Source: Halopiger xanaduensis SH-6 (GTDB lineage Archaea; Halobacteriota; Halobacteria; Halobacteriales; Natrialbaceae). From it: DNA of 64,000 nucleotides. Position 1 is the first letter of the stretch. Each line of letters opens with the position of its first letter. Positions 5,199 through 7,947 of the stretch are shown here, piece by piece. A program made the position numbers and the translations under genes. The stretch spans positions 3,298,270 through 3,362,269 of the forward strand of contig NC_015666.1 of NCBI RefSeq assembly GCF_000217715.1, written 5' to 3'. The notes beneath the pieces are model-generated. The model made no database searches. It had not been told where the DNA came from and was given only the letters and a program-made list of their open reading frames with translations.

Positions 5199-6281
5199 CT
5201 ACTCAGACGCGCCGCCGTCCAGTCCCGGTCGCCGTTGGCGGCGCCGACCCGCGAGCAACCGCTTGAGCCGTTTTCCGGGGCCGCCCTCGATCGGCCATCC
5301 CCGGGTCCGCCACGCGGGCGGCTCCGGCTGAAACTCGGAACACGAGCCGGCGCACTCGGCGGCTGTCTGACGGCCGTCCTTTGCGGTACAGTAGGGAACC
5401 AGCTGTGGGCCGTCCTGCGGGCCCTCGGCGCGCAGTTCGAAGTACCGGCAGTCGGGCCGCATCGTGTCGACGAACGAACGCCAGCCCCGCTCGTACGCTC
5501 GTTCAGCGATGCGTTGCCGCGTCGTCGCTTTCTCCGACGGATCGACGTACTCGAACCGCGCCGCCGAGCCGCCGCGGTCGCCGTCGTCCGGCCGTTCGAG
5601 GATGCGCGTCCCCGGTTCGTCCACCGAGAGCCCGCGCGGGTACCACGCGACCTCGGCCTCGAGAGCGTCGGGCTCGAGCGCCAGTACTCCCGCTTCGACG
5701 GGGAGCCCCTCGAGCAGTACCGGTTCGACGCGCTCGCCCGTCTGTCGGGTGGCGACCCAGACCTCGTCGGCGAGACTCATCGCGACGTCGTACTCGAGTT
5801 GCGGGCCCAGCGTCCGCGCGGCGCTGGCGTCCAGATCTGGTTTGTTCTCGATCGCGATGATCCGATCGACCCAGTCGGGGTAGGGCCACTTGCGTCGGAT
5901 CTGGATCCGGTTGCCGTTCTTTCGCGCCTCGAGAATGCTGCGGTCGTCCGCGCGGTGGATCGCCTCGCGGACGTAGCGCCAGGGGTAGCCGGGGTGCGGG
6001 AGGGCGTCGCGGTAGTAGGTCCACTCCGCGGGTGCGTTCCGGACGATATGGAGAAGGTCGCCGTCGAGGCGTTTCGGACCGAACTTCGCGCGTTGCTCGA
6101 GGGCGTCGGGGTCGCACTCGAGGACGATAGTGTCCCAGCGGCGGCGCTTCGTGCCGAGCTGGCGAGCGACGAGGACGGCGGGCTCGTCGGTCCCGCCGCC
6201 GGGCGGCCACTCGCGTTCGGCCCAGCGGCAGGTCCGGAGTTCGAATTCGAACTCGGAGTCGGCGTCGGCAGTGCGAGCCAC
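5199..6281 (-). CDS. Haloarchaeal unknown, DUF5787-like, with PD-(D/E)XK nuclease-like motifs
   Basis: I recognise this 360-residue protein only as a haloarchaeal unknown of the DUF5787 type. It has marks of a RecB/Cas4-like nuclease core: WDTIVLECD (Asp50), then IIAIENKPDL with Glu145-x-Lys147 at the end of a hydrophobic strand, then QLEYDVAMSLADEVWVAT (Gln161, Tyr164) as in the helix after the active site of RecB-family nucleases. Cysteines lie at 18, 278, 298, 310 and 314, an arrangement reminiscent of one N-terminal plus three or four C-terminal metal ligands. The GTG start at 6281 has a TATA-like GCTTTTGCG about 27 bases upstream. Activity is inferred from motifs only. Confidence 0.75.
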   Translation of the reverse strand: MARTADADSEFEFELRTCRWAEREWPPGGGTDEPAVLVARQLGTKRRRWDTIVLECDPDALEQRAKFGPKRLDGDLLHIVRNAPAEWTYYRDALPHPGYPWRYVREAIHRADDRSILEARKNGNRIQIRRKWPYPDWVDRIIAIENKPDLDASAARTLGPQLEYDVAMSLADEVWVATRQTGERVEPVLLEGLPVEAGVLALEPDALEAEVAWYPRGLSVDEPGTRILERPDDGDRGGSAARFEYVDPSEKATTRQRIAERAYERGWRSFVDTMRPDCRYFELRAEGPQDGPQLVPYCTAKDGRQTAAECAGSCSEFQPEPPAWRTRGWPIEGGPGKRLKRLLAGRRRQRRPGLDGGASE

Positions 6282-6997: not shown

Positions 6998-7429
6998 CTA
7001 CACCTCTTCCTCGCGCTCGTCGAGAAACTCGTGGGCCTGCTCGAGAATCTCGCGCGGACCGTCCTGCGTGACGGTGTTTACGGCCTGTTCGTAATCGCGC
7101 CACTGGAGGTCGCGATGTTCGTTTGAGAGTTCCGCGCTGGCCTCGAACGACTTCGCGATGAAGAGGTGAACGGTCTTGTGGATCGTCTTGCCGTTCGCCT
7201 CGAACACGTAGTCGTAGTCCTCGCGGAAGCCGTCGAGTAGTCGGAACTCTTCGATACCTGCCTCTTCCTTTACTTCGCGGATCGCCGTCTGTTGTAGCTC
7301 TTCATCTCCTTCGACACCGCCCTTCGGAAACTCCCAGTCGCCCGGGCGGCTCTTGAGTAGAAGATACTCGCGCCGGCCCCGCGTGTCGCGGAAGAGGATC
7401 GCGCCTGCGCTCGTAGCTTCGACTGCCAT
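6998..7429 (-). CDS. Nudix hydrolase, bis(5'-nucleosyl)-tetraphosphatase type
   Basis: The 143-residue protein shows a full Nudix box, GGVEGDEELQQTAIREVKEEAGI (about residues 38-60), which binds Mg and hydrolyses nucleoside diphosphates linked to another group. WEFPKGGVE before the box and HKTVHLFIAK after it resemble asymmetric Ap4A hydrolases of the MutT group. The start at 7429 (MAVEATSAGAILF) gives a canonical N-terminus and lies about 27 bases from an AT-rich TATA-like stretch near 7452-7460; a 17-codon upstream extension is less likely. Confidence 0.9.
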   Translation of the reverse strand: MAVEATSAGAILFRDTRGRREYLLLKSRPGDWEFPKGGVEGDEELQQTAIREVKEEAGIEEFRLLDGFREDYDYVFEANGKTIHKTVHLFIAKSFEASAELSNEHRDLQWRDYEQAVNTVTQDGPREILEQAHEFLDEREEEV

Positions 7430-7611
7430 TAACCGGACTAATACGTACGACGTTAAGAGAATATCGGACTGTTCGTCCAACGTACACTGTTCGGGGTCGC
7501 GATTTCTTCGGCTTCGTAAGTCACGTCACTGAATCGTGAATCGGTTCGGACAGACCCCCCCACCCGATCTCAGCAGGCTTTTACGCCCCGACCGTTGACG
7601 ATATCGTATCC

Positions 7612-7947
7612 ATGACCTTCGTCACCCGGCTTACGCTCCAGAGCGGCGATCGCGCCGCGCTCGACGGCATCGTCGATGACATCAAATCGACCGCCGAACG
7701 GAAGGGGGCGGCGCTGAAAGGCCCCCACTCCCACCCGCCGGAGAAGCTCTCCGTTCCGCAGCACAGCCGGCTCCACGCCGACGACGACCGCCAGTTCTCC
7801 TCGTGGACGTACACCGTCTTCACCCGCGAACTCGAGATCCACGGCCACGACAACCTCGCGCGGAATATCGCCGAGCAGAACTTCCCCGACTCCGTGCACA
7901 TCGAAGCCGAAGTCGAACAGATCCGCGGAACGGGTCGCGGAAACTGA
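7612..7947 (+). CDS. uS10/mL48-like ribosomal protein paralogue
   Basis: The 111-residue product resembles ribosomal protein S10 over its length: FVTRLTLQSGDRAALDGIVDDIKSTAERKGAALKGPHS matches the first strand-helix unit of S10 and LEIHGHDNLARNI the later one. Haloarchaea carry this stand-alone uS10-like protein in addition to the true rpsJ, which sits in a ribosomal operon elsewhere. Whether it enters the ribosome is unknown to me. A TATA-like CTTTTACG at 7578-7585 lies about 30 bases upstream of the ATG, suggesting a leaderless message. Confidence 0.85.
   Translation: MTFVTRLTLQSGDRAALDGIVDDIKSTAERKGAALKGPHSHPPEKLSVPQHSRLHADDDRQFSSWTYTVFTRELEIHGHDNLARNIAEQNFPDSVHIEAEVEQIRGTGRGN

Follow-up and report, generated by a model that had tools for sequence, protein, structure and literature searches.

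The DUF5787 gene and its locus

The window (the whole stretch of 64,000 nucleotides of Halopiger xanaduensis SH-6 DNA that was analysed) carries on its minus strand, at positions 5199-6281, a genuine open reading frame with a GTG start and a product of 360 amino acids. The product is a member of the family DUF5787 (PF19100): it matches the whole 278-position profile (model positions 1-278) with an E-value of 1.7e-121 and 405.6 bits, for a curated cut-off of 25 bits, and this is its sole match in Pfam, NCBIfam and PADLOC. In the cysteine region of one paralogue A sequence checked in detail, a sub-threshold Pfam match to DUF7140 was seen as well. The Pfam entry for DUF5787 assigns no function; the family was not found by name in the literature searched, which yielded no activity data for it either. 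The analysis described here makes it very probable that the product cuts DNA and belongs to the restriction-enzyme superfamily. A first-pass annotation of the same DNA had proposed a RecB/Cas4-like nuclease with a cysteine cluster; the residues that it named (C18, D50, E145, K147, Q161, Y164, C278, C298, C310 and C314) are all correctly positioned, and a sixth cysteine, C56, had been omitted.

The features of the gene and its upstream neighbour, in window positions, are:

5199-6281, minus strand: DUF5787 paralogue A, predicted PD-(D/E)XK nuclease, 360 amino acids
5202-5318, minus strand: A-specific C-terminal tail, a conserved WPIEGGPG followed by a basic tail, without a PIP box
5340-5450, minus strand: four-cysteine C-terminal domain, residues 278-314 (C278, C298, C310 and C314 invariant)
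5778-5828, minus strand: helix 2, residues 152-168, with invariant Q161 and D165 (AF2, conservation)
5835-5870, minus strand: beta3 and the E145-N-K147-P-D-L motif, residues 138-149 (conservation)
5883-6086, minus strand: winged-helix domain (residues 66-133) inserted between Asp50 and the E145-x-K147 strand (AF2, VIA-align)
6114-6179, minus strand: beta1-beta2 hairpin, residues 35-56, with invariant R40-Q41-L-G43 and R47, and the catalytic Asp50 on beta2
6210-6254, minus strand: helix 1, residues 10-24, with invariant E14 and E22, and also C18 (AF2, conservation)
6998-7480, minus strand: Nudix hydrolase, upstream of paralogue A on the same strand

Among 69 long loci, paralogue A lies downstream of a same-strand Nudix hydrolase gene in 58 and has a convergent DUF5797 gene downstream of it in 61 (for example L124 and L128). 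The gap between the Nudix gene and A has a median of ~150 bp over 88 loci and is tightest as a 4-bp overlap, so the two genes are probably co-transcribed in some lineages. At the window locus A and the Nudix gene have an RDD gene between them, and on A's other side a deaminase gene stands in place of DUF5797. The Nudix hydrolase of 6998-7480 (minus strand) is ~80-97% identical across haloarchaea; NCBIfam assigns it no substrate, as all its matches there fall far below cut-off. In 54/69 loci the Nudix gene is flanked by a gene for an S10-like protein; the window copy, at 7612-7947 on the plus strand, contains a ribosomal S10-like domain (PF00338, E 8.5e-15), scores under the uS10 equivalog cut-off, and perhaps encodes a uS10 paralogue.

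Distribution and the two paralogues

DUF5787 was found in 289 of 292 sampled haloarchaeal genomes, almost always in exactly two copies, and no credible member was found outside the haloarchaeal class in the phylum sample. The sole weak match from a non-haloarchaeal genome (G481, E 2.9e-4) falls in the zinc-knuckle part of a methionyl-tRNA synthetase and was set aside as a chance match. Mobile carriage is confined, among 72,556 plasmid records, to one copy on a Natronorubrum megaplasmid, and no relatives were found in viral contigs.

A tree of 152 DUF5787 sequences divides them into paralogues A (97 sequences) and B (55 sequences) with a support of 1.0; mean identity is 68% within A, 59% within B and 33% between the two. 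The window gene is an A, and its genome also encodes a B (G000:C3:2821038-2822054; L002:1432-2463) that is ~33% identical to it. This pattern suggests an ancient duplication whose two products almost all haloarchaea have retained; the DUF5787 ancestor would have duplicated ahead of the divergence of the sampled families.

The near-universal presence of two copies is the profile of a core gene and not that of a defence system: PADLOC gave no match to a known defence family, and the patchy, mobile or island distribution typical of such systems was not seen. The defence role that had been offered as one option for the gene is not supported, given its occurrence in 289/292 genomes, the lack of a PADLOC match, and the viral contigs, in which no relative was found.

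Conserved residues and the predicted active site

Conservation was assessed over the same 152 homologues, with identities down to ~30%. Sixteen positions are identical in all of them: E14, E22, R40, Q41, G43, R47, D50, E145, N146 and P148, together with Q161, D165, C278, C298, C310 and C314. K147 is kept in 151/152, the exception being one B sequence with Asn; this protein (L155:5583-6551, plus strand), the only B with the catalytic Lys altered (ENN for ENK), could be an inactive copy or reflect a sequencing error. The conserved set thus includes an Asp and a (D/E)xK motif on neighbouring strands, with helper Glu and Gln residues on the helices, as in PD-(D/E)XK nucleases. The 'PD' of YPDW was considered as another source of the catalytic Asp; position 136 keeps its Asp in just 79/97 A and 48/55 B (~16% replaced) and position 50 in 152/152, so D50 is the better candidate.

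The tyrosine of a RecB-type QxxxY motif, previously assigned to Y164, did not hold up: Y164 is Tyr in only about half of A and mostly Thr in B, and the position four residues after Q161, where QxxxY has its Tyr, is occupied by the invariant D165. DUF5787 accordingly has no QxxxY motif.

The predicted fold

AF2 models were computed from an input alignment built solely from the window and the fetched loci, and reached a pLDDT of 88.5 and pTM of 0.88 for A, and 91.2 and 0.89 for B. In the model of A, a helix (10-24), strands 35-43 and 48-56, the winged helix, a strand (138-146), a helix (152-168) and a strand (173-179) follow each other in the order alpha1 - beta1 - beta2(D50) - [winged helix] - beta3(E145) - alpha2(Q161) - beta4; the order in B is the same. 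This modelled order is that of the PD-(D/E)XK core (alpha-beta-beta-beta-alpha-beta), and E22, D50, E145-x-K147 and Q161 are placed by the model at its active-site positions.

Searching solved structures by sequence, with A, with B or with the profile as the query, brought up no meaningful match, and Foldseek against the PDB returned nothing at E <= 0.001 for either model; VIA-align was then run over Foldseek's candidates. For A, the first match is SPO1766 (3dnx; Z 11.6, rmsd 4.1, 141 aligned of 146), followed by PaqCI (Z 10.1) and the FdxN element excision controlling factor (2okf, Z 9.2); for B, SPO1766 is again first (Z 10.5, rmsd 3.5, 132 aligned), with PaqCI at 8.7. Lower matches are AF2093 (8.1), Card1 (7.4) and SfsA (7.2) for A, and Card1 (7.3), VC1899 (7.1) and EndoMS/NucS (6.9 and 6.8) for B, with Can2 and Bax1 further down; Z scores of 7-8 alone may reflect a common arrangement, a range that SPO1766 and PaqCI alone clearly exceed. 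All of these we take to be PD-(D/E)XK proteins, SPO1766 being MmcB-like. The fold is assigned from the VIA-align matches, the strand order and the invariant residues together, Foldseek not being significant.

Most of the remaining VIA-align matches are winged helices aligned to residues ~66-133, which resemble those of the MarR, MecI, ArsR and RPC34 type over ~60 residues (Z 7-8.4). The long gap between D50 and E145 is indeed an insertion, as had been supposed, and AF2 and VIA-align both identify it as a winged helix; the assignment of D50, E145-x-K147 and Q161 to a PD-(D/E)XK active site is likewise supported by AF2 and conservation.

SPO1766, with which no sequence match was detected, has 146 residues in all and so is without a winged-helix insertion of the size found in DUF5787 and without the added C-terminal cysteine domain. 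PaqCI, the second-best structural match of A, is a type IIS restriction enzyme; DUF5787, by contrast, is a core gene of almost universal occurrence, and none of its conserved neighbours is a methyltransferase.

The cysteines and the Cas4-type nucleases

Nucleases of the Cas4/AddB/Dna2 type carry one N-terminal cysteine and a C-terminal C-x2-C-x5-C. DUF5787 shares with them the superfamily core and the presence of C-terminal cysteines, and an alternative accordingly weighed was a 4Fe-4S exonuclease of this type, whose N-terminal ligand would be C18 and whose role would be repair or CRISPR-style defence. C18 is present in 96/97 A and 49/55 B, and the Foldseek list for B has a Cas4 (4ic1, SSO0001) at rank 12 (E 0.79); Cas4 is not among the 50 VIA-align matches listed, which says nothing against it. 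The number, spacing and conservation of the cysteines differ, however: four C-terminal cysteines are invariant, spaced C-x19-C-x11-C-x3-C in A and with x17, x12 and x3 in B, so that C18, missing in six B and one A, is not needed, and the Fe-S nuclease pattern (C-x2-C-x5-C plus an N-terminal Cys) is absent. The invariant Asp at the QxxxY tyrosine position, the lack of Pfam matches to Cas4 or AddB and of any PADLOC match, the viral contigs in which no relative was found, and the universal core distribution also argue against it, and we consider a Cas4-type enzyme unlikely. The arrangement of one N-terminal and three C-terminal cysteines in the first-pass annotation must therefore be given up, together with the Cas4/AddB assignment; the alignment of homologues that it called for found E145, K147, Q161 and the four C-terminal cysteines conserved and C18 not invariant. 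The four-cysteine domain would bind either Zn or an Fe-S cluster.

A PIP box in paralogue B

The motif QxxhxxF/W/Y is found within the last 25 residues of all 55 B proteins and of none of the 97 A proteins (a typical B tail is RRQSGLDRFG); shuffled tails carry it in 0.4%. In the last 15 residues it occurs in 53/55 B, and in 9/830 other open reading frames of the fetched loci (1.1%), two of these nine being B genes. FEN1 and RNase HII, both known PCNA clients, end in the window genome with ESVTQTGLDRWT (QTGLDRWT) and AEAQQTGLEQF, respectively. The PIP consensus of Haloferax volcanii is QxxLxxFx (PMC7776575). By sequence the C-terminal motif of B is a PIP box, through which it would bind PCNA. 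A repair role, also proposed for the window gene at the outset, is plausible, and that reading is strengthened because the sister paralogue has a PIP box.

The RecB-like nuclease NucS, which has its PIP box at the C-terminus, is a precedent (PMC4929162). NucS/EndoMS resembles DUF5787 in its PD-(D/E)XK core, and in its PIP box as proposed for B only; it differs in having an N-terminal DNA-binding domain, no inserted winged helix and no Cys4 domain. No NucS match appeared in the Pfam results for DUF5787, and comparing the profiles of the two families, both with the insertion and without it, brought no similarity to light (hhalign probability 0.1%). Several NucS proteins from other euryarchaea have a C-terminal PIP box (KKQASLDIF); the haloarchaeal NucS of L168, L173 and L179 are without one. 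Another PIP-like terminus (QTGLGEF) was observed in a protein starting MAKPVLKWAGGKRQL (L121:6948-7871, plus strand), which is Dam-methylase-like by eye and possibly a PCNA-linked methyltransferase.

The predicted DNA substrate has to be weighed against RNA: a nuclease of the same fold directed at RNA or tRNA might be suspected from the position of B, which in about half of loci is divergent from the aIF2-gamma / PIN / RpoE' genes, and from the presence of Card1 and Can2, which also cut RNA, among the structural matches. Gene neighbours are weak evidence, B's PIP box points to a DNA clamp, and a restriction enzyme and an MmcB-like protein head the structural matches, all of which leaves an RNA-directed enzyme with a small probability, below that of the Cas4 type. 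Least probable of all is a catalytically dead PD-(D/E)XK protein with a DNA-binding or scaffold role, to which the winged helix and the K147N of L155 might point, since an active site with dispensable catalysis would be expected to drift and here D50, E145 and Q161 are invariant, and K147 nearly so, down to ~30% identity.

A proposed role in replication or repair

We hypothesize, with a probability of about 0.72, that DUF5787 is a haloarchaea-specific pair of PD-(D/E)XK DNA nucleases serving core replication or repair, of which B is tethered to the clamp and A is clamp-free. In the proposed mechanism, D50 (on beta2) and E145-x-K147 (beta3), with E22 (helix 1) and Q161 (helix 2), would bind a divalent metal and cut the phosphodiester; the winged helix inserted in the catalytic hairpin would keep duplex DNA in place at the active site; and the four-cysteine domain, with its Zn or Fe-S, would brace the C-terminus. 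Paralogue A lacks a clamp motif, and B, through its PIP box, would rely on the PCNA sliding clamp for delivery; the role of the two together would most probably lie in core DNA replication or repair and not in defence.

A more specific version can be offered only tentatively: that this new winged-helix nuclease pair, its A member often beside a Nudix gene, carries out an essential or near-essential step in replication or repair, such as the processing of ends or flaps, and there replaces HerA-NurA, which is absent from H. volcanii (PMC7776575).

New for DUF5787 are the fold, the active site, the two-paralogue structure and the PIP box proposed in B. H. volcanii carries DUF5787 and is genetically tractable, so that the roles of the family are directly testable there. 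If the proposal is true, the archaeal replication and repair set would contain one more PCNA-linked nuclease, and for B the PIP box would be the likely route to the replication fork.
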